A DNA stretch of 51,152 nucleotides from a virus, in IMG/VR virus record IMGVR_UViG_3300044822_000018, positions 1-51,152 of that record. One strand, 5' to 3'. Shown piece after piece: positions 8,121 through 44,281 of this stretch. Position 1 is the stretch's first letter, and every line of letters begins with the position of its first letter. The notes beneath the pieces were generated by a model that searched no databases, was not told the DNA's origin, and saw only the letters and a list, made by a program, of their open reading frames with translations. Position numbers and translations under genes: made by a program.

Positions 8121-11100
8121 CTAGCAAGTCGCCGACGTTCCGGTATATCCCGGAGCGCCGGGAATGATGCAGGCATTGACGGCTTTGAAATATGCGTTCA
8201 TGTAATTTAGCGGTAGACCAAAGTTCACCACGTAGTCAGTATGACCGGCAAAACTCGTCGTCGATAACCCGTAATTCGAGGCCACAGTACTCCACGTTGG
8301 ATCACTGTCGCGCACGAACGTCCCGAACGCAGGCCCATAGCTCATTGTGTCGGTGACGACCGCGCCGTATGTAGCGAGACTGATCGCGTACATGACCTGC
8401 AGAGGATGGTTGAAGCCGTAGCTCACAGCATCGCCCGAAGTGCAGGTCGTGCCCGGTCCCGGCGTCACGTTGCATATTTGCGCTGGAGTGCGGTTGAGGA
8501 CGAGGTGATCGCCGTAGCTTAGGCCGGTAAAACCACGCCTACTTTGACAGTTCGTATCCGTGTTCGTGGATATAGCGGGCCAGACGTCGCTTTGCGAAGC
8601 CTGAGCGCAATCCAAAAACATGTATGTTTCATGCTTGATGGCTTTGTTTGTTAGAATATCGTTCGCGGTAATTATCATCGCACTTAGGCCGACTGCCCCA
8701 TGCTGCCCGTTGCCAGGGAATGTCGTCGAGCTACCACCCGAATCATAAGCTGGATTTGGAATACTACCGGGAATCGGATAATAACCGCTGTTATTATTCG
8801 ACGTTCCCGAGGTCCAGGCGGGCCCGCCCGTTGAGTAAATAGCAGCACCAAGGCCGGAAATATAACCCGTATTGCTCGTGTTATTAAACGTCGTGCAGGA
8901 CGTTGTACTCGTACCACCATTTTCTTGGGAAGTGCATGAAGCCGCCGCAGATTGGCTTGAGCCATATCCAGCGTTCTCGATAACAATCTCATACTGATAT
9001 GGTGAAGCTATCGTCGGCCAACCCGTTCCGTTAGTAGAAGATGGCTTCCAACCTACTGGTTCGATCACAATTAAGTGACAATCGCAACTACCGATTCCGT
9101 CTGCCGCTTCTGTCGTGGCCCCTGCGGGAACGTGTAGGTTACTTATGCCTGTTGTGAATCCACAATATGACGAAGTTTCACTGTTGGTAAAACAGTTGAA
9201 CGTGTATGTTGGATCGGTACTCTTCGCATAATAGAAGCCCGAGAACCCGGGCTGCGATGTACCAGGGACCGCGCTAACCGCGAGGCCCTTTGATGCCTGC
9301 CAACCCGCCACGCAACCAGAGCAACCGGAGTAACTTGAATACGTCGAGCCGGTGTAATTCGACATCGCCGATGCGCTATACGATTTGATGTTGTTGGCTA
9401 TCCCTGCGGTATTGACTCGCTGAGTCATGGCTAAAGCATTGGGCCACTGTGGTTCGGCGTAGCCAGTAATCGAATCAGTGCCAGGGTAGTTAGGATTTGG
9501 CGTAGTCGAAGGCGCAGCCGTTGGACTTGGGTACGGGTCTACAACAGCCGCGTTTGCAAGTGCCTGCAAATAGGTCGTGGGGATGGCCGTTGGGAATACT
9601 TGGACGCCCCATATGTCAGCTACGGCTTTACGCGATACCTGGTCGCTTGCAACGCCAATATTAAACGCAAGACCGGAAAAACTAAACGCCGCACTTGGTG
9701 CAGTATACGCGCTACACGTCTGCTGAAACAAGCAGATATAGTAAGTTAAGTTGCCTGTTGTACCTGAATCTTGCGTCATCGCAATCGTGTAAGTCTGTAA
9801 CGCCGTCAGGCCGTTTTGGGACGCGCTTGGGCCAGCCTGTGCGTTGGTCGTTACGTTGTAAGCGTGCGTGCCTGTTGAGCCTTGCGGATTGACCGTGCCG
9901 TTGCAAATGCCTAAGTCTATATCAAACACGCTCATCGAAACCGCGCTAGAGCCATTTGCCGTAGACGTGCATTTCGTGCTAAAAATAACCGTGATGCCTG
10001 GCGGCGTCGTCGGCAGGCTGGTGATATACGGATTCGGCGTATAATACAAGCCGCCAAACGGCGCAGCGTTAGTATAAATCGGCGTAGGACTCGGAACAGG
10101 CGTAGGCACTTGGACGGTTACAGGCAAATCGACTGAGTGTCCCGAGCCGTCATAAATCGTAACGACGACCGTACCCGAGGCTTGCGGAGTCAAAGTCAAC
10201 GTGCCTGTTGCGCTGCTGCCTGTTATCGAGCCGTTAACTATGCCGCTTTGCGGGATATTAAAACTAAACGCCGCAGAGTTATTCGGATCAGAAATCGCGA
10301 CTGTCGTCGGCGCGGCGGTCGGTCCAGAGAAAGTAATCGACGTAGGCGAGATAGTCAACGGTCCCGGCGTTGAGGGCGGCTGCGTCGGCGGCGCGGGCGT
10401 AGCGCCAGGCACGAAATACGCGAAGCCTAGTCCGACAGAACTTGTTGCGCCCGCCGCGCACGGATTTGCAACATCTTTGACTGTGATCGTAAGATAGCTA
10501 CTGGCCGAAGTTGTCGAGTATTTAATATTATAAAGCTCGCTTGAGCCAACGCCGTTATCGACATACGCGGCGTTTGTTGCGATAGGCGCAGGTGCTGTAT
10601 CAGAAGTCTGCGCCGTAATTTGCACGTTCGCGCAGTACGCGCCTAATACAAAGTTTAGTGTGTTTTTGGTTGTGTAGTTAGGCGTGCCTTTATTAACAAC
10701 AAAACTAAACCCGTTACCTACACCGGACGTGACAACCTGGGAAGAAATGCCACCTGTGTTGGCCGAATCGGGCTGTCCGTCGCCGGTGTCCCATGTAATT
10801 GTCGGCGGTGGACCGTAAGCGCCATAAAACAAACTCGGCCCGATTGCAGTATATGTCGAAATGATGCCGTTACACGTTGTCTTTGTGTCGAAGCCATTAA
10901 CAGTCGAACTTCCGGCTGACTGACCCCAGTTTGCCCAGCAATAACCCGTAGCGCCGACGCCGCCTGTTAAAGTTGTCAAGTCCAAAGAGTTAGAACTCGA
11001 ATGGGCAAAACTTTGTGCCGTAATCGCAATCGTGCCAACAGGCGGCGGCGTTGGCGATGGCGGCGGTGTCGCGCTCACGGTATAGGGCAGCGGCGTTGTT

Positions 11101-13676
11101 CGCGTGCCGTCTGAAACTGTGATTGTTCCCGAGCCCACGGTTAGAGGCATAATCTTAATCGTCGAGCCCGAAACGCTCACGTTGACGTTGTTCGCCGGTG
11201 GCGCTGTTGCCGTAAAGCTGCCCATGAAGTTGGGATCATAGATCGACACGGTTTGGCTTGGCGAGTTCGTATACGCGAACGTGACCGTCGTCGGCACGAT
11301 AGTAAGCGGGCCAGGCGTTGGCGACACGCCAGGGGTAGGCGATACGCCTGGACTGGGCGTCATGAACGGCGTGAAGCCGATGACCTGCGTCTGTTCGGTT
11401 ACGTTATAAGAATACGTCCAAGGCTGCGACGTACCGCCTGTTTGCGTGAACTGAATCGGCGCGGTTGCCGTGGTGCCGTCGAGATTAAACACCGTCAGAA
11501 CAGGCGTGCCGTTGTTTGGGTTGTAGGACGCCGGAACCGAGAACGTGACCGCCTGCGGCGCGGGCGTCGTTATGGTTGACGTGCCGATGACTTCGCGCTG
11601 AGCGTTGATATAATTCCAAAACGTCTTTTTGCCCGACGAATAATCAATGGTGGTGGACACGGTGTTTGCGGTGTTGCCGGTAAAACTGTAATACCAAACC
11701 GACGGCGTATAAGTTGTATTGGAGTCAGACAAAAGCGACGTGAAACTTTGAATCGCGACGCCCTGCGGCAAGAGCGCGTTCGATGCGCCTGACGAACAAG
11801 AGTTCTCCAAAGAATACGCCGCGAAGCCCGTCGAGCCAGGGCATAGCTGAAAATAATAGTTCGGCGCTAAGTACCCTTCGAGCATACGCTGCAAGTACAA
11901 GTGCGGCGTATACACAGTGATAGTTTGATCAGTCAGGCCACCGGCTGACACGTTGTCGCCCCAACCGCCTTCGCCCACGGCTACGGGCTTTGAGCCGTTC
12001 CAGCCGGTTAAGATCGTCTGGGACTCCGTCGAACTGGGGTCCTCAAACGTGGTATAGCATAGCTGACCGGCGAACGCCGTCGAGTGCGGACAGCCGATGT
12101 GCGGATTGTTGCCGCCTGTTGGATACCACGGATTCGTAATAGGATAGTTGTGATTGTTAAACACGTCAACCATCGGGTTTAAGTCATACCCGATGCCCGT
12201 GCATGAGCCGTAGTCGCTCAGACCAAGATTCTGCGCTTGTGTCGGCGTGCAAAAACTATACGCCCCCACGAACGCCGGTCCTAAAACTTGGACAGACGGC
12301 GCGACCGAGTGAATCAAGTCGTGAACGTGCTGACCGCGCTGTTCGTACCAGTTTTGCCACGAGCCATAATTAACGCCCAAGTTCGCCGTGCAATCATAAA
12401 TCGACGCCTGTTGATCGTCAGGCTCGTTTGGACCTAGAATAAAATACTTAATCGGCAAGTTTGGAATAGTAGCAGCGGCTGTTATAGTCGAATCCGTGTC
12501 GCACGCGCCCATGCCGACTGTCCAATCCGAATTTTCTATACTGGCGGCGGTCGCCGCGTTACCCCAGATAGTTGAGTTATCAGTCGAGTTAACGCCCGAA
12601 ACATGATGAATATTCATACTGGCAATCGCGTTCTGCCAGGACGAAGTGTTAGCGTTGTCCGTCGGAAGCTGATCGGGCCGCACGTTGACCCCCACGAGGT
12701 TCGCCACTTGCGACGCCGTGCGCTGCGTGCTGGCGGTAAAGCCCACGATGGGCGTCGGCGTTGGACCAGGGACGGCGGCGAACTGCGGCGCGAGCAGAGC
12801 CTCAAACACGAACCCGGCGTGATTCTGCGCCGCCGACGTGGTGATCGTGGGACCAATCGGCGTCACGGTGTCTTGCGTCACAAAATTCGACGTGAACGCA
12901 TAGCGCGTCGTAGGCATCGCCGCCGAATCTGAATAAAGTTTGGTTGTCCAGTTAAGCGGCGTGGTGTCTGTTTGACCCGTGGTGCCGCCCGACGTATGAA
13001 AAATAATCGGCTGAGTATACAGCGCATTGGGCGTAAGTTGCGGCGGCGTAACCGTCGTGCCTGTCGTCGCGGTCGCAAGTATGCCGTATTGATTAAACAC
13101 GCTAGAGTTCTGCACGACGTTTTGGTATTCAAGGCACTGAGCTAAAAGCGCCTTGGAGTTTGTGTTGTTCTTGGTAAACGTCGTTGTTGTGGTATCACCC
13201 GACGGTACAAAGCGATACCATATATAACCCGAATACGTCGGGTTGGTATTTAGACTCGTCAACTGCTGCCAAGTCGAGTCAGAGTTGGTGATCGTGTCTC
13301 CGGCCTCGTTGACAGTAAGCGCGCAAATTTGCAAATCGGTATTGTTCATGAAATACGTCCCGGCGTGCGGCCAGGTAACTACATCATTGGGCGACGTGAA
13401 CGTATCGGTATTAGTAACTTGCACCAGCTTAATCGCGCCTGGCGTCGCGGTCGGAACAGGCGTCGGCAGCGTCGGCACAGCCGTCGGCGTCGCTAGCATC
13501 GCAGGGTTAATTCCCGGCCCGCACAGCGTCACAGGCTGATTGTTGACGTTAAAGAGCTTCACGCAGTTAACTGTGGGAATCGCCATCGTCTGCGCCCACA
13601 AACTGCCAGGCAGGCCAGTTATTACGGCGAGAACTCCCATAAACAACAGTGCCCAAAGGCTCTTATTTATCGTCAC
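8121..13676 (-). CDS. Giant exported multidomain protein with GH-A glycosidase domain
   Basis: The gene encodes 1,851 residues. An N-terminal Sec signal peptide (basic start, hydrophobic LWALLFMGVLAVITG, likely cut after WAQ near residue 29) is followed by a Pro/Thr linker (about 65-85), a beta-rich domain, then a TIM-barrel-like domain with GPNEPD (E418) and VGEGGW (E569). These fit the acid/base and nucleophile strands of clan GH-A glycosidases. Further Pro/Ser/Thr linkers separate Ig-like or jelly-roll modules, and a Cys-rich C-terminal domain of about 450 residues ends the protein. The many cysteines fit an oxidising, extracytoplasmic place. It is the first gene of the leftward arm. The GTG start has no well-spaced Shine-Dalgarno. 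TATGAT lies 11 bases upstream. Substrate is unknown: a host polysaccharide is likely. Confidence 0.75.
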   Translation of the reverse strand: MTINKSLWALLFMGVLAVITGLPGSLWAQTMAIPTVNCVKLFNVNNQPVTLCGPGINPAMLATPTAVPTLPTPVPTATPGAIKLVQVTNTDTFTSPNDVVTWPHAGTYFMNNTDLQICALTVNEAGDTITNSDSTWQQLTSLNTNPTYSGYIWYRFVPSGDTTTTTFTKNNTNSKALLAQCLEYQNVVQNSSVFNQYGILATATTGTTVTPPQLTPNALYTQPIIFHTSGGTTGQTDTTPLNWTTKLYSDSAAMPTTRYAFTSNFVTQDTVTPIGPTITTSAAQNHAGFVFEALLAPQFAAVPGPTPTPIVGFTASTQRTASQVANLVGVNVRPDQLPTDNANTSSWQNAIASMNIHHVSGVNSTDNSTIWGNAATAASIENSDWTVGMGACDTDSTITAAATIPNLPIKYFILGPNEPDDQQASIYDCTANLGVNYGSWQNWYEQRGQHVHDLIHSVAPSVQVLGPAFVGAYSFCTPTQAQNLGLSDYGSCTGIGYDLNPMVDVFNNHNYPITNPWYPTGGNNPHIGCPHSTAFAGQLCYTTFEDPSSTESQTILTGWNGSKPVAVGEGGWGDNVSAGGLTDQTITVYTPHLYLQRMLEGYLAPNYYFQLCPGSTGFAAYSLENSCSSGASNALLPQGVAIQSFTSLLSDSNTTYTPSVWYYSFTGNTANTVSTTIDYSSGKKTFWNYINAQREVIGTSTITTPAPQAVTFSVPASYNPNNGTPVLTVFNLDGTTATAPIQFTQTGGTSQPWTYSYNVTEQTQVIGFTPFMTPSPGVSPTPGVSPTPGPLTIVPTTVTFAYTNSPSQTVSIYDPNFMGSFTATAPPANNVNVSVSGSTIKIMPLTVGSGTITVSDGTRTTPLPYTVSATPPPSPTPPPVGTIAITAQSFAHSSSNSLDLTTLTGGVGATGYCWANWGQSAGSSTVNGFDTKTTCNGIISTYTAIGPSLFYGAYGPPPTITWDTGDGQPDSANTGGISSQVVTSGVGNGFSFVVNKGTPNYTTKNTLNFVLGAYCANVQITAQTSDTAPAPIATNAAYVDNGVGSSELYNIKYSTTSASSYLTITVKDVANPCAAGATSSVGLGFAYFVPGATPAPPTQPPSTPGPLTISPTSITFSGPTAAPTTVAISDPNNSAAFSFNIPQSGIVNGSITGSSATGTLTLTPQASGTVVVTIYDGSGHSVDLPVTVQVPTPVPSPTPIYTNAAPFGGLYYTPNPYITSLPTTPPGITVIFSTKCTSTANGSSAVSMSVFDIDLGICNGTVNPQGSTGTHAYNVTTNAQAGPSASQNGLTALQTYTIAMTQDSGTTGNLTYYICLFQQTCSAYTAPSAAFSFSGLAFNIGVASDQVSRKAVADIWGVQVFPTAIPTTYLQALANAAVVDPYPSPTAAPSTTPNPNYPGTDSITGYAEPQWPNALAMTQRVNTAGIANNIKSYSASAMSNYTGSTYSSYSGCSGCVAGWQASKGLAVSAVPGTSQPGFSGFYYAKSTDPTYTFNCFTNSETSSYCGFTTGISNLHVPAGATTEAADGIGSCDCHLIVIEPVGWKPSSTNGTGWPTIASPYQYEIVIENAGYGSSQSAAASCTSQENGGTSTTSCTTFNNTSNTGYISGLGAAIYSTGGPAWTSGTSNNNSGYYPIPGSIPNPAYDSGGSSTTFPGNGQHGAVGLSAMIITANDILTNKAIKHETYMFLDCAQASQSDVWPAISTNTDTNCQSRRGFTGLSYGDHLVLNRTPAQICNVTPGPGTTCTSGDAVSYGFNHPLQVMYAISLATYGAVVTDTMSYGPAFGTFVRDSDPTWSTVASNYGLSTTSFAGHTDYVVNFGLPLNYMNAYFKAVNACIIPGAPGYTGTSATC

Positions 13677-22971: not shown

Positions 22972-23318
22972 TGGATAGCCACGTTGACATAGCCTTTCGT
23001 AACCCTATACCCGCGCCTGTTCCACATCGCGCTCAACTGTTGCGTGATGCGACTTATGCTATACAGCTTTACGATGCGGCTAACTCAGCGCAACACGCGC
23101 GAAATCCTAACTGGCATGAGTTTGATCCGGTCTATAAGCCTGTTTCTCATAGCGGCGAACTAGGCTACGCCGCAGGGTTTTTGTGTGTCGATGCGGCTTT
23201 ACATGGTGCGATCAACTTGCTACACTTAGGCCCCAAAGCACACAACGCCGCTGATATATGGATGGCAACGCAGAGTGCAACAGGCATACTCAATACCAAT
23301 TCCAACAGACTCAAGTAA
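22968..23318 (+). CDS. Protein of unknown function
   Basis: The gene encodes 116 residues, helical, with a conserved-looking hydrophobic stretch (GELGYAAGFLCVDAALHGAINLLHLG). GGAGG precedes the double ATG (22968/22971). Its 3' end overlaps the polymerase start by 44 bases, so the two are probably translated together. Confidence 0.6.
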   Translation: MMDSHVDIAFRNPIPAPVPHRAQLLRDATYAIQLYDAANSAQHARNPNWHEFDPVYKPVSHSGELGYAAGFLCVDAALHGAINLLHLGPKAHNAADIWMATQSATGILNTNSNRLK

Positions 23319-25527
23319 CTGCACAGTTTGCCCAAGACACGCGAAATGCGCCTCGCCGGAGCTTGTTTCGAACGGCAACAGACGCGCGAAGGTCATGGTC
23401 GTAGGGCCAGGGCCTTCTTCGCGTGACGATACGCTAGGCGCGGCGTTCTCTGACTCGTCGGGACGCCTCTTGCGCGCGATGTTGGCCGACGCTGGGTTTG
23501 AGCTCGATGACGTGTTTTACTCGAACGCGGTGCGCTGCGGCGGTAAGCCGCCGACGCCGAGCGAAATAGACGCCTGTAGACCCTGGTTGGCCGCCGACAT
23601 AGCCGAAGTACAGCCGCAGGCGATCATCGCGCTTGGCGACCCTGCGCTGCGCGCTCTAACGAAGCTCTCGGGCCTTCAGACTAAGCGCGGTTCCTCGTAT
23701 AAGCTACACGCGAGTCTGAGCCCGCACACGTCCGAAGAAATCGTCTGGCCGACGTACTCACCGGCCTACGTCGCGATGTATCCGCAAGCGCGCCACACGG
23801 TTGTCGCAGACCTGCGCCGCGTTCGGGACAGAACCAAACAGGCAGAAGAAATACCTTGGGAATGGTGGGACGGTGCTGCGCTACCGCCAGGGCCTTACGG
23901 TTTTGACATAGAGACAGATTGGGACCGCAAGACTAAAACAGGCGGCGACAATATGATTCAATGCGCCGTTGCTGTGTCTAATCGCGTGTTTGTCGCATAC
24001 GGCCCAGAACAGGCAAAGCTCTTAGCACAACAATTAACAGGCGAGGTTTACACGTTAAATGGCTGGAAATTCGACAACCCAAAATGTCGGGCACTTGGAA
24101 TTGCCGTTCCGCATGGTGTGGACGTTATGGGAATGGCGTATTTGGATGACGAAACGCAACCCTTGGGACTCGAATCGCTCGCAGTTAAATATTTGGGCGT
24201 CCGGGGATGGAAGGACTTGCGTGACGCTGAACCTGGTACTGATGAGTTTGCCCTTTACAACGCGAAAGATAGTTATTACACTCTATTGCTTGCGCTTAAA
24301 CTCCGAAATGTCCTGGGAAAACGGACAGCCTTAATCACGCACGTTATGTCACCGGCCAGGCTTGCGCTCGACGCTTGTACGGAGAGAGGAGTACCGCTAA
24401 ATGCTGGAGCCATACAGCGAGCAAGAGATTCTTACGTCGCCGCCTTACATAGCGAACATGATGAGGTTATACAACTTGCATGTGCAAGCGGCTACACAGA
24501 ACACAACCCTAACAGTACCGCCGAAGTCGGAGCAATACTTACGGCGCGGGGAATACACCTTTCACATACGCCCTCCGGCAAACTCGCAACAGGTAAAGGC
24601 GTGTTGCAGGAGGCCGGGGGAGATGCGTATGCTGCTGCGCTACTTTCATATCGTGAGGCTCGCAAGGCGCTATCCACCTATGTGGAACCGTATGAGCGGG
24701 CAATTCAAAGTACGGGCCGCGTTCACCCGGAGTACACCATCTGGCGGACTGTTACGAATCGTACGAGTGCGCGTAATCCGAACGTCCAAAACTTGCCCAG
24801 AAACCTCAAAGATTTCTTCAACGTCACTAGCGTTGATTACTCAGCTATTGAGTTCCGCCTTGCAGCGTGGTGCGCCGGAGAAACCGGCATCCTGCGACGT
24901 TTTGCCGAAAACCCGGCGTGGGACCCGCACCGTTACTTCGCGGCGCTTTTTTACAACAAGCCAGAGAGTGAAGTTACAAAGAGCGAAAGGCAAGTGGCTA
25001 AGTCCGCTAACTTTTCGCAACTCTACATGGGAAACGGCGATACTCTGCAAGCGTACGCCGGGAAGATGGGCATCGTATTGGACAGCCGAACGTGTCACGA
25101 CATTCATCATAGATGGCATGCCACGTTCCCCGCGTTCCGTCATTTCTACCAGCAAACCCTGGTGGAACTTATGGAGTGCGGCTATGTCGAAACGGCCACG
25201 GGCTATCGGCGGCATTATGGTGACTTCCGCGCTCTACCGCCAATTAGGCGAACTGCAGCGTTACGAGAGTGCGTTAATGTCAAAGTCCAAACTCTAGCGG
25301 CGCACGTCGCGCTGATCGGCCTGGCCGAATGTCACAGGCAAGGTTTGCCTGTTTGCGGATTCATTCACGACGCGAATCTTTTTGACTTCAAGACTAAGCG
25401 AGAAGCCCTTGACGCGATGCCGTTAATTGAGTATTGTATGATTACGCATCCGGTAAAAGTCTTGCGTGAACACTTTAACGTAAATCTCGATGTTCCCTTG
25501 ATTGTGGAGGCGACATTCGCGGCGTGA
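23275..25527 (+). CDS. UDG-like domain fused to family A DNA polymerase
   Basis: The gene encodes 750 residues. Residues 1-180 follow the family 4 uracil-DNA glycosylase plan, with iron-sulfur cysteines C16, C19, C88 and C101 and the GPGPS loop, but the motif usually reading HP is YSPAY, with Ser162 where the His stands. Then come a 3'-5' exonuclease (D211/E213, NGWKFDN at 262-268, Y328-D332) and PolA motifs A VDYSAIEF (D521), B RQVAKSANF (K576) and C IHDAN (D699, Ala for the usual Glu). It is the replicative polymerase. The N-terminal domain probably senses uracil instead of excising it. GTG start without a clear ribosome site. Confidence 0.85.
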   Translation: MQQAYSIPIPTDSSNCTVCPRHAKCASPELVSNGNRRAKVMVVGPGPSSRDDTLGAAFSDSSGRLLRAMLADAGFELDDVFYSNAVRCGGKPPTPSEIDACRPWLAADIAEVQPQAIIALGDPALRALTKLSGLQTKRGSSYKLHASLSPHTSEEIVWPTYSPAYVAMYPQARHTVVADLRRVRDRTKQAEEIPWEWWDGAALPPGPYGFDIETDWDRKTKTGGDNMIQCAVAVSNRVFVAYGPEQAKLLAQQLTGEVYTLNGWKFDNPKCRALGIAVPHGVDVMGMAYLDDETQPLGLESLAVKYLGVRGWKDLRDAEPGTDEFALYNAKDSYYTLLLALKLRNVLGKRTALITHVMSPARLALDACTERGVPLNAGAIQRARDSYVAALHSEHDEVIQLACASGYTEHNPNSTAEVGAILTARGIHLSHTPSGKLATGKGVLQEAGGDAYAAALLSYREARKALSTYVEPYERAIQSTGRVHPEYTIWRTVTNRTSARNPNVQNLPRNLKDFFNVTSVDYSAIEFRLAAWCAGETGILRRFAENPAWDPHRYFAALFYNKPESEVTKSERQVAKSANFSQLYMGNGDTLQAYAGKMGIVLDSRTCHDIHHRWHATFPAFRHFYQQTLVELMECGYVETATGYRRHYGDFRALPPIRRTAALRECVNVKVQTLAAHVALIGLAECHRQGLPVCGFIHDANLFDFKTKREALDAMPLIEYCMITHPVKVLREHFNVNLDVPLIVEATFAA

Positions 25528-26076: not shown

Positions 26077-26091
26077 TGGGCAGGAGGATAT

Positions 26092-26937
26092 ATGAACGAT
26101 TTTGTTATTAGTGCGTCCGCTCTAAGCGCGTTCAAGCGTTGCCCGAAAAGCTATTACTTCGGCTACGAACAGGCGCTAACAGTCATCGAACAAAAAGAGG
26201 CTCTAACCAACGGCATCGACTTTCACACGTATGCCGCCGACTATGCGATCTATCGGCGCGATGGCGTGGAGCCTGACTTCGGCAAGTACGACAACGACAA
26301 GATGTACGAAGTATTCAACGCATGGGTTAGGCATCGCGGCGCGACAGAGTTTGACAACATGGCCGAGATTTTGCACGTCGAAGAACCCATGTTCACCGAA
26401 CTGTTGCCCGGCGTTCAACTCCGCACGACGTTAGACTTAGTTTATCGCGACAAAAACGGCTGGATCGTAATTCGCGACTACAAGACGTTCGCAAAGATGC
26501 CGTCGCTCGACGCTAGTCTCGATTTTCAAGCGCGCATTTACATCGCTGCGATCATGCGTAAGTACCAGACTGAAAACGTCAAGTTTGAACACGTCTACGT
26601 TCGGCGCGACCTGTTCCACGAAGGCAAACAGTCTCACGTCGCCTGGACGCCCGAAGAATCTTACGTCTACGAAGAAATCGTTATCCCGCGCGCCGAGGCC
26701 GATCGGCTCTGGAAAGAAACGCAATACGTGGCGGGTATTATTCTAGACGCAACAGGTACGAACATCTTTTACAGAGTTGACCTTAAAGGCACGTCGCCGT
26801 TTACGTGCGGGTCGTGCTTTTACAAGACGGTCTGTGCAGCCGAGAATCAGAACGGCGGCATGGATGGCCTAGACCTCGAAGAACTAGACTATCGCGTCAA
26901 CAGAAACGAGCGCAATCAACAAGAGATACCAGCATGA
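26092..26937 (+). CDS. Cas4/RecB-like PD-(D/E)XK nuclease
   Basis: The gene encodes 281 residues. SASALSAFKRCPKSYYFGYEQ opens the fold like RecB/Cas4/AddB nucleases, the active site follows as LRTTLDLVYRDKNGWIVIRDYKT (D..., D-x-K), and the C-terminal CGSCFYKTVC plus the early Cys makes an iron-sulfur cluster likely. The ATG at 26092 with AGGAGG is clearly right. The frame's earlier ATG is inside the promoter. It heads the recombination cassette and probably resects ends for the annealase or ATPase downstream. Confidence 0.82.
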   Translation: MNDFVISASALSAFKRCPKSYYFGYEQALTVIEQKEALTNGIDFHTYAADYAIYRRDGVEPDFGKYDNDKMYEVFNAWVRHRGATEFDNMAEILHVEEPMFTELLPGVQLRTTLDLVYRDKNGWIVIRDYKTFAKMPSLDASLDFQARIYIAAIMRKYQTENVKFEHVYVRRDLFHEGKQSHVAWTPEESYVYEEIVIPRAEADRLWKETQYVAGIILDATGTNIFYRVDLKGTSPFTCGSCFYKTVCAAENQNGGMDGLDLEELDYRVNRNERNQQEIPA

Positions 26938-27230
26938 ACGACGACACGATCCGCGTAAAGAACGCGCTTGCGCTCAAACTCGCGCTTGAAAATGCGTACC
27001 ACGCGCAACCCGACGTTACCGAGATATACGACTTGGTGAACTGCGCTTTTGACGCCCTCATCGCAGCCACGCCGCAAGAACAGCCGCCCGAGATTAGTCC
27101 ATGTGACGATTGTGGTTACTGCAATAATCCAACTTCGCCCGAGGCGCACAATCACGGGCCTTGCTTCAACTGCTACTGCCCTTCACATAAAGCCCATTAT
27201 ATAGCGCCCGAGAGCGAGGCAAAGCCATGA
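26934..27230 (+). CDS. Small zinc-finger protein
   Basis: The gene encodes 98 residues. A helical N-terminal half is followed by a Cys/His-rich end: CDDCGYC then CFNCYCPSHKAH, enough ligands for two zinc ions. It overlaps the nuclease stop and the next start by four bases each. Likely nucleic-acid or protein binding within the recombination operon. Confidence 0.6.
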   Translation: MNDDTIRVKNALALKLALENAYHAQPDVTEIYDLVNCAFDALIAATPQEQPPEISPCDDCGYCNNPTSPEAHNHGPCFNCYCPSHKAHYIAPESEAKP

Positions 27231-27505
27231 ACGACGAACAGGCTATTTTTAGACGCAGACCTGTTTGGCGCTGTGTAAACTGCTCGCATTTAAGTCTACG
27301 TGTTGACGAAAGTCAACTGTGCGACGCCTGTTCTGCCAGGGCCAATTTACTGCGCGGAATAAAATGCTCGCTGCTCTTGATCGCGATGTACGTGTCCGTC
27401 ATCGTCGGACTACTCAATTTAGACACTGGCGTAGTGACGTTGTTTTGTGCTATGATTTTTGGCATGAGCGTAATATATTTTAACTCACTACTCACACACA
27501 AATGA
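27227..27505 (+). CDS. Zinc-ribbon membrane protein
   Basis: The gene encodes 92 residues. An N-terminal zinc ribbon (CVNC, then CDAC) precedes two transmembrane segments (SLLLIAMYVSVIVGLL and VVTLFCAMIFGMSVIYF) with a short tail. Four-base overlaps connect it to both neighbours. A membrane anchor within a recombination operon is odd. Function unknown. Confidence 0.6.
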   Translation: MNDEQAIFRRRPVWRCVNCSHLSLRVDESQLCDACSARANLLRGIKCSLLLIAMYVSVIVGLLNLDTGVVTLFCAMIFGMSVIYFNSLLTHK

Positions 27506-28290
27506 TCTACTTGCTCGACGCCGATCAGAACGGCTCAGACTCGATTCAGCACCTTGTTGACTCCGGCAAAATTAAATACTTGCCTATGTCAACTTTTCAA
27601 GTGTTCGACAAAACAGTTAAAGAACTGTTGCCTGTTGTGGGACCTGATGACTTAGTCATCATCGACACAATAGGCTCGCTTTTTGAAACTACGCGAGGGG
27701 ACGCAAAACTTGGAACTGACGTATCGGTTGACCTATGGACGCTACGGGGAAAGTACCTAGACGGGGACAAGAACTATCTCACCGTCTACTCTTTGGCAGG
27801 TGATACGATTATACGTCGGATTAAAAATCTCAGGGCAAGGGGTGCGAGAATTATTACTACGTCGCATGAGTCCGAGAAACAAGACCCTACGGACTTGATG
27901 AAAAAGCGCGCACCGGCTCTGAGTGACGCGCTCTATAAGTCAATCATGGCGAACACGTCCGACGTTGTGCGCCTGTCGGAAATTATCGACCCAATCTTAA
28001 ACGAGGATGGTAGTGTCAAGGTACCGAGTGGGACACGAATCTTACAACTCCGTAAAACGGAGGAAGCCGTCGCTAAGTACCACGTCTTGCCGGAGGTTTC
28101 TGACCGAATCAAAAGGTTATTGCGACTACCTTCGAGAAGTGGTTTGTATACTTACTACGCGCATGTCCAAAAACGTCCAACCTGGTTACACATATACGGA
28201 CCGCCAGGAGTAGGTAAAACCGCGCTTTCTGCTTCAGAAGCCGAAACTCCAAACCCACAACACACAACACCAAATCAAGAAAGCGACTAA
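27502..28290 (+). CDS. Sak4-like RecA-fold ATPase, apparently circularly permuted
   Basis: The gene encodes 262 residues. In Sak4/AAA_24 recombinases the order is Walker A, strand LxIDxD, Walker B, TxH strand. Here the protein begins with the second strand YLLDAD (3-8), has Walker B LVIIDT (51-56) and ITTSHE (118-123), and only at the end RPTWLHIYGPPGVGKTALSA with Walker A at 233-240. No other P-loop exists upstream or in the neighbours. Cutting between Walker A and strand 2 and joining the old ends restores the family order exactly. The gene sits between a RecB-like nuclease and an SSB-like protein, the usual place of Sak4. ATG overlaps the upstream stop. No Shine-Dalgarno is seen. Confidence 0.75.
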   Translation: MIYLLDADQNGSDSIQHLVDSGKIKYLPMSTFQVFDKTVKELLPVVGPDDLVIIDTIGSLFETTRGDAKLGTDVSVDLWTLRGKYLDGDKNYLTVYSLAGDTIIRRIKNLRARGARIITTSHESEKQDPTDLMKKRAPALSDALYKSIMANTSDVVRLSEIIDPILNEDGSVKVPSGTRILQLRKTEEAVAKYHVLPEVSDRIKRLLRLPSRSGLYTYYAHVQKRPTWLHIYGPPGVGKTALSASEAETPNPQHTTPNQESD

Positions 28291-28291
28291 C

Positions 28292-28819
28292 ATGGCCGAA
28301 GAAATGTTCACAGTAGACGAAATCACGATCATCAACGAACAAGTGCCTGTTGGTGATTACAAAGCGCGCTTGGTCGATGCAACCGGCGAGCTTTCCAAGA
28401 GCAAACAAAAGCCCACGGTCTACGCGACCTGGGAAATCGTGGCGGGCGAACACGAAGGCAAAGAAACCCGCTCGTTCTACTCTCTAGCCGTGACGCGCAA
28501 ACAAAACAAGAAAGGCGTCATGCAGACCTACGCGGGCGGCATCGCCGACTACACCGCCGCGATGCGCCTCGTAAAGCCGCAATTCAACGGAACCTGGCCG
28601 GTCAACCCGACGCTCGAACTGGCCGAACAAGCCGCCGTTGGCTTCAAGAAGGCGTTCTCGGGCAAGGTCGTTAATCTCAAAGTCATGCCGAATAACTACA
28701 CCGATGATTCGGGCCAAGCTGTCAACGGAACGCGCGTCAAAGTCATCGGGACAGGCGGCGGTGTGCCTGTTGCTGCTGCCGCAGTTAAAAGCGGCGTAGA
28801 TATGTTCGACGATCTATGA
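28292..28819 (+). CDS. SSB-like single-strand DNA-binding protein
   Basis: The gene encodes 175 residues. The first 130 are beta-rich with GDYKARLVDA, TVYATWEIVAGEHEGKETRSFY and VNLKVMPNNYTD, like the DUF669/OB-type phage single-strand binding proteins. The C-terminus is the acidic hydrophobic tip DMFDDL, as used by SSBs to dock partners. It starts two bases after the Sak4-like gene, a standard pairing. It would hold single strands for recombination and replication. Confidence 0.72.
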   Translation: MAEEMFTVDEITIINEQVPVGDYKARLVDATGELSKSKQKPTVYATWEIVAGEHEGKETRSFYSLAVTRKQNKKGVMQTYAGGIADYTAAMRLVKPQFNGTWPVNPTLELAEQAAVGFKKAFSGKVVNLKVMPNNYTDDSGQAVNGTRVKVIGTGGGVPVAAAAVKSGVDMFDDL

Positions 28820-29172
28820 CCGAAGCGCAGTTAAAAACCGGGCTTTGTGCAAAACTAAAGGCCGCTTACCCAGCGGCCTTCTTTTTTAGAACAGGAGCGG
28901 GCGCGTTCGCGATGGCAGGTTTGCCGGATATTATAGGCATCGTGTTTGGCCGGTTTGTCGGCATCGAGGCTAAACGGCCAGGCAAATACTCAACACCCTT
29001 AAAAGGCTGTACGCCAGCACAGCTTCATGTGCGCGATTTAATCTTTCGCGCAGGCGGCATTTGGCTGGCGACAGACGACATTGACGACTGTTTAGTTAGA
29101 CTCAAAAAAGCGTTGTACTCGTGTGGCGCGTCTGTCAACGATGAAGAAAAAACGCCAATAGGATCGTTGTAA
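28816..29172 (+). CDS. VRR-NUC nuclease
   Basis: The gene encodes 118 residues. The compact VRR-NUC/Holliday-resolvase-like PD-(D/E)XK fold is shown by FFFRTGAGAFAMAGLPDIIGI then FVGIEAKRPGK and a PAQLHVRDLIFRAGG helix. Such enzymes cleave branched DNA. The ATG overlaps the SSB stop (ATGA). A complete terminator hairpin occupies codons 15-24, and the 3' end overlaps the convergent late gene by 38 bases. Confidence 0.82.
   Translation: MTEAQLKTGLCAKLKAAYPAAFFFRTGAGAFAMAGLPDIIGIVFGRFVGIEAKRPGKYSTPLKGCTPAQLHVRDLIFRAGGIWLATDDIDDCLVRLKKALYSCGASVNDEEKTPIGSL
28858..28887. terminator. Bidirectional terminator inside the VRR-NUC gene
   Basis: AAGGCCGCT (28858-28866), loop TACCC, AGCGGCCTT (28872-28880), then C and six T on the + strand. 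On the minus strand the same stem is followed by TTTAGTTTT-like sequence. It would stop early transcripts after the SSB gene and late transcripts running antisense past 29135. Confidence 0.75.
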
Positions 29173-33256: not shown

Positions 33257-34588
33257 TCACTCCAGCAGCCCAGGCGGGCACCAAAAACCGGAAGCAAGCA
33301 TCGAATCCCCATCTTTAAGGATACAATCCGCTGCATCCGTTCGGTACTGTAACCCTGGCGCATCAATTTTTTTCGCGGTATCTAACGCACTAGAGTTTAA
33401 CTCCGAAAGAGAATCGCCAATATGAATAGCAAGTCCAACGATGCCCTCGGGACTCGCGACGTGCAGCCCTTTGACGGAATCGAAAGCGAGTTCATAGGGC
33501 AAGAAATCACCGCCGATCAAATCATCGACTTTGATGCCGCGCACTTCAACATCGAGCGACGTGTGCTTCATCTCTCGCTTCCCATGTTCCCAAGGGTACG
33601 GTGGGATCGTTAAGCGCAATGAGAAAGCCGTTTGATTTGACCATTCGGGCAGGTCTGTACCTGTTGCCAGGGCATAAAGAAGCTGACTCGCGCTTTCCCA
33701 CAGGCACAGACTCGTCGGCTCAGAGTCATACCCAAAGCGCGGCGTCCATTCCAAGAAATACGCCTCGCCATCTTCACCGGCGATGGCGTTCATATCATAT
33801 ATGCCTGGCGGAGCCTGTTCTCGCAAGAAAACCTGTGTTAGATTGGAAAACCCAAGTTTTAGGGCTATGTCAGGCTCGTCCGCGTAGAACCATACCGCGT
33901 TAAACGCGCAACCTGTTGCGGGGCCAATGTCGTCGTTCCAGCACTTTTTGTGTTCGATTGTGCCTTCATAGGGTCCGACAAATGCACGACCGTTCCACCA
34001 GCGCGCTGTCGAAAGCGGTACGCCGTCGATCTTTTGCTGCACCATGCACTCGCCGCGCGGCCCAAAACGCCGTATAACAGAATCAAGATATTCGCTTAAC
34101 TGTTGCCCGCCTGTTGCGCTCTTAGTTGCGTCAGACTCTAAAAACCTGTCGGACTTCCAGTAGACGCTTTCTTCTTGTGGCAGTTTTTGAGCCCATTGGC
34201 GTGCCTCTTGAAATGACTTAAAGTCTACGTAGGAAGGTAAAGTTGCCCCACAGTTTTTGGCTATCTCAAAGCCGTAACTTCTATCTTTTTCGAGTTTATC
34301 GCAAAATTTACCGCCGCCTACTACCAACAGGCCCCAACGTCGCGCCTCGTCGGCCTGTTCGCCCATGCCAGAGGAATCAAACAAAACAACCGTAGGCTGA
34401 TTAGCCAACGCGCCTTGTTTGGCCCAATCGAGTAGTTTTGCCCACGTCGAACAGGTCGGCACTAAGCCAGTACCTACCTGTTGCTGTTCTTTGTCTTGGT
34501 TCCAGACAAGAACTTTGCAGCCTTCGGCTTGAAGTCTAAGCCAAAAACTAAGGCCGCACGAAAACGACGTAGCAATAGCGACGTTCAC
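33257..34588 (-). CDS. PurD-like ATP-grasp ligase
   Basis: The gene encodes 443 residues, the length of glycinamide ribonucleotide synthetase. PurD-like landmarks are the FCDKLEKDRSYGFEIAKNCG helix (94-114), QQKIDGVPLS (184-193), YFLEWTPRFGYD (277-288; PurD has LEFNxRFGDPE) and a C-terminal SPEGIVGLAIHIGDSL...LDTAKKI...LQYRTDAA segment that tracks the PurD end. Substitution of the N and DPE positions suggests a changed acceptor. It lies between two virion proteins and overlaps the upstream stop, so it is expressed late. It may ligate an amino acid to a protein or nucleotide. Purine synthesis itself seems less likely at this place. Confidence 0.7.
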   Translation of the reverse strand: MNVAIATSFSCGLSFWLRLQAEGCKVLVWNQDKEQQQVGTGLVPTCSTWAKLLDWAKQGALANQPTVVLFDSSGMGEQADEARRWGLLVVGGGKFCDKLEKDRSYGFEIAKNCGATLPSYVDFKSFQEARQWAQKLPQEESVYWKSDRFLESDATKSATGGQQLSEYLDSVIRRFGPRGECMVQQKIDGVPLSTARWWNGRAFVGPYEGTIEHKKCWNDDIGPATGCAFNAVWFYADEPDIALKLGFSNLTQVFLREQAPPGIYDMNAIAGEDGEAYFLEWTPRFGYDSEPTSLCLWESASQLLYALATGTDLPEWSNQTAFSLRLTIPPYPWEHGKREMKHTSLDVEVRGIKVDDLIGGDFLPYELAFDSVKGLHVASPEGIVGLAIHIGDSLSELNSSALDTAKKIDAPGLQYRTDAADCILKDGDSMLASGFWCPPGLLE

Positions 34589-40854: not shown

Positions 40855-41690
40855 TCTCCCGTATAGCCGTATGCCTTGTGGTTGCCTTTAATATAAAAGC
40901 TGCGATTTGTACGCACTTTGGGCGCGCGGGCATCGTCGCCTGTTCTACGCCTGTTCCAAGTGCGTAAATTACGCATTTCTTTTTCGTATTCGCCTGCCGC
41001 ATAGTTGCGCGCCTCGGCGGCTTTGTCTGAATCGTCAGAAAATTTAGCGTACTCGCACATCTTCCAGACGATAGCGTTCACAAAGTTTATCGGAAAATAC
41101 GTCGCGTCTGTTAGCAAAACCAAATCCGGCACAACAGGCACGCCATACATCGTGATAGTGCCCGCGCCACCGGGCGCTGGCTGTATGCCGAGATAGCCGC
41201 CGTCCCAGTAATACTCCGGCGCAAAGCCGCCATACCAGGGCGAGCCCGGTCCTGCCGCGCCAATGCCCTGGTAGGGAAAAATCGACGGAGCCGCGCTGAT
41301 CCAAGCCGGAGCGAACTGACCGGTGACACCGCCAGGTATTTCTACGCCTGTGGCTGTCGGCAGCATCGTGCCGCTCGAATCGTTAACGCCGATTTGCTGC
41401 CCAGACATAATTTTTTTAGTCGTGCGCGGGCACAGTTGGCCGTTAACAAATACGGCGTCTGTTGTGATTACAACAGGCGAGATTTGATACGTTGCCTGGT
41501 TAGGAATAATAGTTATGTCCCAACGCGCTTGCGGAAACAGCACGTCGCGGTTGACGGCTTTGCAAGCGTCGTTTGCGAAACTAATCATGGAATTGTCAGA
41601 CCAACGACCGTTTGACGATGGGTCGTTAAGACGCAAACGCGCCTTGCTAACTAAGTCCGAGCATTGAAGATTCGCGCCGATAACAGGCAT
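40845..41690 (-). CDS. Head-tail adaptor protein
   Basis: The gene encodes 281 residues. The N-terminal CSDLVSKARLRLNDPSSNGRWSDNSMISFANDACKAV is the classic adaptor/neck opening: helix, L-N-D, then W-S-D-ELI-like helix. Beta strands follow, then a long C-terminal helix bundle (AEARNYAAGEYEKEMRNLRTW). In podoviruses this ring binds the portal and seats the tail. It overlaps the exported glycosidase gene by one base. Confidence 0.75.
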   Translation of the reverse strand: MPVIGANLQCSDLVSKARLRLNDPSSNGRWSDNSMISFANDACKAVNRDVLFPQARWDITIIPNQATYQISPVVITTDAVFVNGQLCPRTTKKIMSGQQIGVNDSSGTMLPTATGVEIPGGVTGQFAPAWISAAPSIFPYQGIGAAGPGSPWYGGFAPEYYWDGGYLGIQPAPGGAGTITMYGVPVVPDLVLLTDATYFPINFVNAIVWKMCEYAKFSDDSDKAAEARNYAAGEYEKEMRNLRTWNRRRTGDDARAPKVRTNRSFYIKGNHKAYGYTGEWE

Positions 41691-44281
41691 TATGGGAACG
41701 GGTTCCCTTCACAGAGTGGTGCGCCTGTGGGGTTCGGGTTCGGCGTGTATCCGGTCGGGCACACGACAGGTTGCGGCGTCGCGGGGTTTGGCGTGCTGCC
41801 GGTGACGTTACCGATTTGCAGAATGATCGGCATATCCCAAACAGGCACGACGACACTCGCCAAACCAGTGTACGCCGTCAATGGAGTCGTTGTTACTGCG
41901 CCGGTTAGCGGATTGATGGCCCACGTCGTGTAGCTCGCGTTGGCTTGATTAAATCTAATAGTCGGTGTTGTCGTGGGCACCGCGATGGGGGCGAGCGGCG
42001 ATGACTGCTCAAAACCCCCATCATTCTTCCAAACAACTAACCAAAAGCTGCCATCGGCTTTTTCAAGCAACAGGCTTTTCACGTCGCTTGTGCCGTCGAT
42101 GTAATACGACAGCGATGCGTGCGGTAACGTGGCGGTGCTTGGGAATGTGTCGCCAGGGTCGTTGAGAATTTGAGAAAACGCACGCATCGACGTATACGCT
42201 GGTGTCGGGTTGAGATACCCGTCTAATAAAGCGTAGAAGTCCGAGTTATTTTCCATCGCCAGGTCGTAGATGTACACGCCATCTGCGCCGTCAGACTCAC
42301 CTTGCAGCATTGCGCGCATCGTGTACTTTGATTTGGTTGGGAAGTCGATGTACGCCGGTTGATTGCCATACGTACCATTTGCGTCATACGCACCTTCTTC
42401 GCTGACCACGACGGGCTGCACGGGGGAACTGCCGCAAATAATTTGTGTCGTAGCCATCGTTTGTGCGAGGCCCGATTCACCGGGCACAACCGTAACGTCA
42501 GGGTTGCCGACACCTGCAAAGGTATACCCGTGCAGGTTACACAGGTCCGTATACGTGCCCGGCTGCACGCCTTGCGACGTGTAATAGTTCGCCAGTGTAT
42601 TAAAGTCGAGATTGTCGCTGGCAAAGATAACCGGCGATGAAATTAGCTTAACGCTATGCGGAAACGGGCTTGCTGTTGGGCCGTAGCTGACCGAGCGCGC
42701 GCTTGACATCGCCTGCTGATTGGCGAACACGTAGGCCGCCCAATTCGACGACGTGCAAGGCGTGCCGCCAGTTGTTGGATTAGGCGTCGCGTTCGTGCTA
42801 GACCCGCATGACGCCGCAGCGGGCGACGGCGAGGCTAGGGGCAGAGTTCCGACAAATGTTCCAACTGTTGCGTTCGGATGCGGTGCTGCGGTGCTGCCGG
42901 TGTTTCCGCCGTGTTCGTAAGAGCCGTCCCCCGATGCGTTGTATTCGTTGAGTCCCTCGAATCCGCGCATGGCTAACGGGGTCGTGCCATTGTCCGTAAC
43001 GCAGTTATAAAGCGTCGTTAGGCTTGCGATGGTGCTGTAATCGACGGTGCCCGACTCAATGTCGTAGCCGAGCGGAACGAGCGTATTCTGATACCAGCCG
43101 CAGATCGTCGATACGCTCTCGGAGCCGAGCCCGTCGCGAAGATGGCGGAATACCATATCGGCCATGATATTACGGCCCGTTCCGGTTGCACCCGAGATGA
43201 GCGTGTTGCCGTTGGGTGCCGGGGTTGTGGCGTAATAGTAGAAGGCACCACCGCCGCTGTCTTGGTAGGAGAAGTGCGTATTAACGCCCTCATTGTAGAG
43301 CAGCGTGTTTGCGGGAATTGCTACAACCGGAATCGGGCTGGGATAGGGCGTTGCGGGTACGATAGACGGGCCAGGTAAAACCGATAGCGTTTCGTTTAGA
43401 ATATTTTTGGATGCAGGCCAAACGCTGTATCCAAGTTCCGACCCAAAGTACGACGCGGCGGCGTTGCTTGTCGTGGTTGGGTACGTCGCTTGTGCGTAAA
43501 CAATGTTCGAGTAGTCGACCGTCGTTGGACCGACGCCCTCAACGCTTTCGCCTGTCGTGTTGCCGACGCTGTTGCCGTTTGAGAAGTAAAACGGAGGATA
43601 CATGACGGCACTTGGATAGTACGTGCCGTCTAAACCGTTAAAGTCCCAAGCCTGCAAGACATAGGTGCCCGCTGTAGCCGACGAGATCGTGTTGCCGGAA
43701 AGAGTTTTGTTGGCCGAACTCGTCCAGGGTCCCGTTGTCGCGGCAACCGATGGCAGCGGATTTGGAACAGTTGCCGTTACGCTGCCAGGGCATCCGTTGG
43801 CATTTGCCAGGTCCACGAGAATCGTTTTTGAGGGCGTGTTGGTGCTACTCGACAGCAGTAAGCTTGCCGTTGTGCCTTCGCCGCTTGCCGCCGCGCATTT
43901 TACCCAAATACCGTATGTTGGGGAGCCGCTAGGCGTCGAGATTTCCGTCCAGCCGCTAATCGTGCCACCGGGCTGCGTCGATGATCCTAACGCTCCCTGT
44001 GCTTCAAAGACAAGCATGTGTGACGAGGACGCAGGCGTGGCGGACAACGATGCCGTGACCGTTTGGCTCCCTAAGTTTGTCGTGTTGACGCCATACCCCG
44101 GAGATTGCGCTGGATACGCCATCGCGAGCGGTGACGCGGTTGGGTACGCCGTGATCGACGGACTCGGTGAGGGCGATGCGCTGGTGACAAATGTCCAGAC
44201 ACCGGCACGACTTGAATTGTCAATCGCAAGGAAAATAGCAAATAAAGCACCTAGTATTGCTAAAATGCGAATTGACTTCAA
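41690..44281 (-). CDS. Exported GH-A-like glycosidase
   Basis: The gene encodes 863 residues. The signal peptide is IRILAILGALFAIFLAI, cut near SRA (residue 26). Next comes a beta domain with a Pro/Ser linker, then a TIM-barrel-like catalytic domain with RGFEGLNEY (E446) and VVVSEEG (E628 or E629), the acid/base and nucleophile strands of clan GH-A. A beta-sandwich and a Pro-rich Cys-containing tail close it. The TTG start has AGGA overlapping the upstream stop. It has only about two copies of the phage-wide AACAGG motif in 2.6 kb, unlike most neighbours, a hint of recent gain. Confidence 0.7.
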   Translation of the reverse strand: MKSIRILAILGALFAIFLAIDNSSRAGVWTFVTSASPSPSPSITAYPTASPLAMAYPAQSPGYGVNTTNLGSQTVTASLSATPASSSHMLVFEAQGALGSSTQPGGTISGWTEISTPSGSPTYGIWVKCAAASGEGTTASLLLSSSTNTPSKTILVDLANANGCPGSVTATVPNPLPSVAATTGPWTSSANKTLSGNTISSATAGTYVLQAWDFNGLDGTYYPSAVMYPPFYFSNGNSVGNTTGESVEGVGPTTVDYSNIVYAQATYPTTTSNAAASYFGSELGYSVWPASKNILNETLSVLPGPSIVPATPYPSPIPVVAIPANTLLYNEGVNTHFSYQDSGGGAFYYYATTPAPNGNTLISGATGTGRNIMADMVFRHLRDGLGSESVSTICGWYQNTLVPLGYDIESGTVDYSTIASLTTLYNCVTDNGTTPLAMRGFEGLNEYNASGDGSYEHGGNTGSTAAPHPNATVGTFVGTLPLASPSPAAASCGSSTNATPNPTTGGTPCTSSNWAAYVFANQQAMSSARSVSYGPTASPFPHSVKLISSPVIFASDNLDFNTLANYYTSQGVQPGTYTDLCNLHGYTFAGVGNPDVTVVPGESGLAQTMATTQIICGSSPVQPVVVSEEGAYDANGTYGNQPAYIDFPTKSKYTMRAMLQGESDGADGVYIYDLAMENNSDFYALLDGYLNPTPAYTSMRAFSQILNDPGDTFPSTATLPHASLSYYIDGTSDVKSLLLEKADGSFWLVVWKNDGGFEQSSPLAPIAVPTTTPTIRFNQANASYTTWAINPLTGAVTTTPLTAYTGLASVVVPVWDMPIILQIGNVTGSTPNPATPQPVVCPTGYTPNPNPTGAPLCEGNPFP

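Follow-up and report, generated by a model that had tools for sequence, protein, structure and literature searches.

Does a virus encode a recombination ATPase whose motifs are arranged in a permuted order, and did that order arise in nature? The question is raised by one gene of a metagenomic contig. We analysed the whole of this contig, hereafter the window, which comprises 51,152 nt (positions 1–51,152 of the IMG/VR virus record IMGVR_UViG_3300044822_000018). Judging from sequence, we consider it probable, at about three chances in four, that the gene product is a Sak4-family ATPase whose RecA core has been circularly permuted in nature; it likely arose by tandem duplication and most likely works as Sak4.

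Motif order and the Sak4 profile

The gene starts with an ATG that shares 4 nt (ATGA) with the preceding ORF, and its stop codon, TAA, lies one base 5' of the SSB-like gene (Table 1). Its 262 codons contain no stop or frameshift in translation. The motif positions given in the original prediction were all recovered: the protein opens MIYLLDAD, placing strand YLLDAD at its start, Walker B (LVIIDT) occupies residues 51–56, the sensor strand (ITTSHE) occupies residues 118–123, and the only Walker A (GPPGVGKT) is found near the protein end at residues 233–240, with 22 residues remaining after GKT. The chain order is β2, Walker B, sensor strand, C-terminal part, linker, β1, Walker A and α1; that is, Walker A does not precede Walker B, and the order is reversed. 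Residues of both Walker motifs aligned to Sak4 family columns, and the β2 Asp, the sensor His, Walker A and Walker B are all intact. The displaced C-terminal piece has a GC3 of 0.35, versus 0.55 in the rest of the gene, and a weaker codon signal.

Table 1. Features of the window in and around the permuted gene.
Feature	Coordinates	Strand	Remarks
DNA polymerase A with N-terminal UDG-superfamily domain	23275..25527	+	Pfam UDG 6.9e-28; anchor of the syntenic module
PD-(D/E)XK (Cas4/RecB-like) exonuclease	26089..26937	+	Pfam PDDEXK_1 3.6e-18; PHROG_69 exonuclease 1.9e-21
Small Cys-rich ORF	26934..27230	+	Between exonuclease and Sak4
Small Cys-rich ORF, apparently membrane-spanning	27227..27505	+	4-nt overlap with permuted gene
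8-mer ACACACAA	27494..27501	+	Directly 5' of new start codon; second copy at 28260–28267, 2 nt past the PNP codons
Permuted Sak4-like (AAA_24 / PHROG_124) ATPase gene	27502..28290	+	262 aa
Sak4 core, β2 to C-terminal part	27502..28131	+	Residues 1–210; Walker B, sensor strand, K192-Y-H194 at K-x-R position
Displaced Sak4 N-terminal piece	28132..28287	+	Residues 211–262; linker, β1 WLHIY, Walker A GPPGVGKT 233–240, α1, TPNP, tail QHTTPNQESD
SSB-like protein, acidic C-terminus (VDMFDDL)	28292..28819	+	Homologous to genes 0–4 nt behind Sak4 in L089, L033, L092 and L079
VRR-NUC / Holliday-resolvase-like endonuclease	28816..29172	+	PHROG_93 endonuclease 9.1e-9

It had been predicted that the family order would be recovered by moving the tail to the front, and this held true with Pfam AAA_24, PHROG_124 and hhalign alike. 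The native protein matched AAA_24 (2.6e-9, 37.6 bits, cut-off 27) and PHROG_124, the Sak4 family (1.4e-16, 61.8 bits), in two stretches each, and the main stretch began past the P-loop part of both profiles. When the tail was moved to the front, each match became a single stretch, and the score rose from 61.8 to 74.3 bits for PHROG_124 and from 37.6 to 47.1 bits for AAA_24. Residues 1–210 alone scored 49.8 bits against PHROG_124 over residues 4–192, while the C-terminal 66 residues alone matched the beginning of that profile (positions 47–64). For hhalign, the profile was built from 69 Sak4 proteins gathered in this analysis. In native order, residues 2–158 aligned with columns 55–205 and residues 229–246 with columns 34–51; in rotated order, one co-linear alignment of 34–248 was obtained (E 1e-14). 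The N-terminal part resembles the later part of the family and the C-terminal part its beginning, the two together covering the domain, and only 3 columns, at the α1/β2 loop, are left unmatched between them. Since columns 34–51 are supplied by the C-terminus and columns 55 onward by the N-terminus, the Sak4 profile is rebuilt almost without loss. Both pieces are homologous to Sak4.

We also scored all 262 rotations of the protein against the local Sak4 profile. Offsets 192–230 scored best, and the best single domain reached 33.5 bits rotated versus 16.6 (plus 9.4) native; eight conventional Sak4s peaked at an offset of about 0 in the same scan. The rotated score was not reached with any of 5000 shuffled tails (maximum 26.6), 90 non-Sak4 P-loop segments used as tails (maximum 28.1) or 3803 unrelated ORF tails, from which Sak4 ORFs had been left out (maximum 27.9). 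The match of the rotated order exceeds chance.

Ancestry of the C-terminal P-loop piece

Because the P-loop motif is common, we tested whether the tail descends from Sak4 or from another P-loop protein. When all ORFs of the fetched loci were ranked by their match to residues 211–262, the nine best were Sak4 N-termini, headed by that of L011 with 18.4 bits. A tblastn search of INPHARED with the tail returned only weak E-values, the lowest of which belonged to the Sak4-annotated Akkermansia phage Chambord; Sak4/AAA proteins of Pseudomonas, Bdellovibrio and Manatee Spring were also listed. At the position just before β2 that is PNP or PKP in many Sak4s, the tail keeps TPNP, which places the cut almost exactly at the α1/β2 loop. 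P[NK]P at 4–9 residues after GK[ST], a spacing pattern picked after the alignment had been inspected, is present in the permuted protein, in 21 of 72 Sak4s and in none of 82 other P-loop ORFs. Three relatives (L059, L056 and L085) have an internal Met directly before β2, the point at which the permuted protein starts.

Taken by itself, the tail reaches 19.2 bits with Pfam AAA_16 but 14.0 bits with AAA_24, and phmmer ties it to p97/VCP in the PDB. This would be in line with a fusion in which a Sak4 without its original N-terminus regained Walker A from the beginning of an unrelated P-loop (AAA+) gene. However, genuine Sak4 N-termini (L012, L013, L099 and L102) are equally ambiguous in Pfam, and the p97 score reflects the P-loop alone, added up across a tandem pair of AAA domains. 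The best p97 match was 26.5–27.7 bits whether the upstream residues were native, removed or reversed, and the best single domain reached about 13.6 bits versus 18.4 for the L011 Sak4. A p97-like AAA+ fragment was rejected, as similarity was confined to the P-loop and the upstream residues added nothing to the best score. With the PNP motif also absent from the 82 other P-loop ORFs, we regard such a fusion as very unlikely.

Genomic slot and distribution of the permuted order

Relatives were surveyed through the linked polymerase gene (polA) in 80 IMG/VR contigs. Sak4 was found in 72 of them and was permuted in none: all complete Sak4s with a recognisable P-loop had the conventional order, and the rest were co-linear with the family. 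Pattern matching found no standard Walker A in some of these conventional Sak4s (L030, L040, L043, L044, L052 and L080); L030, for instance, has GEPGTRKT. From sequence, this suggests altered ATP use in the family.

In phages with a related PolA, the polymerase gene is followed by the PD-(D/E)XK exonuclease, Sak4 and an SSB-like gene, often with a resolvase or VRR-NUC gene thereafter. The VRR-NUC-like gene of the window has 49 homologues in relatives, the best of which lie 0.5–0.7 kb behind Sak4. Since the window shares the PolA, exonuclease, SSB-like and VRR-NUC-like surroundings with its relatives, the permuted gene fills the Sak4 slot. The gene had been proposed to hold a working position beside its nuclease and SSB neighbours. 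This stands for the homology of the neighbours and for the SSB-like gene, which follows directly, but the nuclease is separated from the gene by two small ORFs. Neither ORF has a homologue in any fetched locus or a PHROG match. A second, intact Sak4 was not found in the window, nor was a remnant of a conventional N-terminus found upstream of position 27502 in any frame. The profile reconstruction, the ordinary order in relatives, the homologous neighbours and the lack of a second Sak4 in the window favour the original prediction of a natural permutation.

The order is unique in our survey. A second permuted copy was not found in IMG/VR, GTDB genomes or INPHARED, and the order is represented by one genome only. 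The sequence is strongly diverged from all known Sak4s. Peptide patterns revealed no close relatives in IMG/VR and GTDB: RPTWLHIYGPP had no matches, and the 8 IMG/VR proteins with EKQDPTD were all unrelated. The sole tblastn match, L001, covered residues 164–238 only, stemmed from a chance seed and is not a Sak4; positions 1–1500 of this contig hold a short-repeat array at the contig start, reading REQPRKLGVALG / ESNLGSLGLLW. No paper in the open-access literature searched was found to describe a permuted Sak4 or RecA-fold recombinase, in agreement with the novelty claimed at the outset.

A single IMG/VR record with no second copy could reflect an assembly or amplification artefact in a metagenome contig. 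Such an artefact, however, needs three separate junctions, between which the longest exact identity is 8 nt. The permuted gene shares no exact repeat of at least 14 nt with the rest of the window, and this lack of longer repeats argues against an assembler misjoin. The outcome is, moreover, an open gene with correct boundaries, located in the slot where Sak4 is expected. We consider an artefact the least probable of the explanations weighed here, slightly behind even the AAA+ fusion.

Possible origin, fold and activity

A natural permutation could have arisen as follows. The probable first step was tandem duplication of a conventional Sak4 gene; the first copy would then have lost its N-terminus and the second its core. 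Translation would start at the Met just before β2 of the first copy and stop shortly after α1, at PNP, of the second. The strand order of the RecA/ASCE sheet is 5-1-4-3-2, in which β5 adjoins β1. Since these strands are neighbours, the old C-terminus could be joined to β1 by a linker of roughly 15 residues. The new chain ends would sit in the α1/β2 loop, at the sheet edge, and ATP would be held between the P-loop, synthesised last, and Walker B, synthesised first. The direct repeat of ACACACAA may mark a breakpoint microhomology, although this is suggestive only: an 8-nt match of this kind arose by chance in 73 of 20000 random pairs (0.4%) and in 276 of 20000 A/C-rich pairs (1.4%).

AlphaFold2 predicted a confident α/β RecA-like core (about residues 1–65, 95–122 and part of 141–155), with pLDDT mostly above 90 where structured. 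The Foldseek neighbours of this core were Rad51C (Rad51C-XRCC3), Dmc1 and F1 ATPase, and also Sak4-type phage proteins such as that of Serratia phage Serbin. The P-loop piece received no confident position in either run, with pLDDT mostly below 60 in this region; the alignments were shallow and left the two halves unpaired. In the alignment of the first run, the C-terminal tails of the family overlapped the P-loop columns; that of the second run was cleaner, and a strand appeared at residues 228–232, with low pLDDT and from an unpaired alignment.

HK620 Sak4 requires ATP to bind and anneal ssDNA, and its SSB stimulates it (PMC5928155). Sak4-52A forms filaments, in which each protomer has Lys229, Arg231 and His232 positioned at its neighbour's ATP analogue (PMC11846896). 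In the permuted protein, the Lys of the corresponding K-x-R motif is kept and the Arg, 94% conserved in the family alignment, is replaced by His. With the Walker A residues, the Walker B Asp and the equivalent Lys (K192) all present and the Arg changed to His, the protein has probably remained an ATP-dependent annealer, although its ATP turnover may be altered. It would act with the adjacent exonuclease and SSB in ATP-dependent ssDNA binding and annealing.

The replacement of a near-invariant Arg would also fit a decayed gene, as would the weak codon signal and low AlphaFold2 confidence at the C-terminus and the strong divergence from all known Sak4s. Duplication and deletion would in this case have left a long in-frame ORF without a working ATPase. 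A dead gene is, however, expected to lose features such as Walker A, Walker B, the sensor His and the β2 Asp quickly, and here they are intact; no stop or frameshift interrupts the ORF, which is tightly coupled to its neighbours and is the only Sak4 in the window. We therefore judge decay to be unlikely, though the most probable of the alternatives. We lean somewhat towards the permuted Sak4 being a working recombination protein of the RecA/Rad51 superfamily that evolved naturally by circular permutation, with the P-loop as the last part to be translated and the new ends beside the nucleotide site. Its sensor and trans-acting residues may have been retuned (His for Arg), altering ATP control or filament assembly.

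The permuted protein shares its core segments, Walker A and B, sensor strand and size with the Sak4 / PHROG_124 / AAA_24 annealing ATPases (HK620 Sak4, Sak4-52A of PDB 8RC5, and PA73), and conventional Sak4s occupy the same genomic slot between exonuclease and SSB. It differs from them in having β1, Walker A and α1 at the C-terminus, His for the K-x-R Arg, and a very divergent sequence. Permuted P-loop domains are already known for GTPases; what would be new here is the permuted order in Sak4. The cpGTPases of the YRG family (RsgA/YjeQ, YqeH and YlqF) are likewise P-loop NTPases with circularly permuted motif order, but they have a GTPase (TRAFAC) fold with the order G4-G5-G1-G2-G3, whereas the permuted Sak4 is a RecA/ASCE ATPase cut after α1 and before β2. 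The rare cpRAS domain, with the order G3-G4-G5-G1-G2, was inferred from sequence (PMC2430557). It is a eukaryotic Ras GTPase with several members, and its cut falls between strands 2 and 3, in contrast to the α1/β2 cut seen here in one genome. A natural permuted Sak4, if confirmed, would mean that new ends at α1/β2 can be accommodated by the RecA core, and would provide a test of how the position of the P-loop affects folding and oligomer assembly. Annotation by motif-order rules would miss or mis-call such genes.

No tRNA was found in the window. Elsewhere on it, two regions of the minus strand, which carries the virion genes, encode very long Ser/Thr/Pro-rich proteins with PSPTP-type repeats (8121–13676 and 41690–44281), perhaps adhesins, and a 443-aa protein encoded among the virion genes (33257–34588, minus strand) appears ATP-grasp-like by eye.
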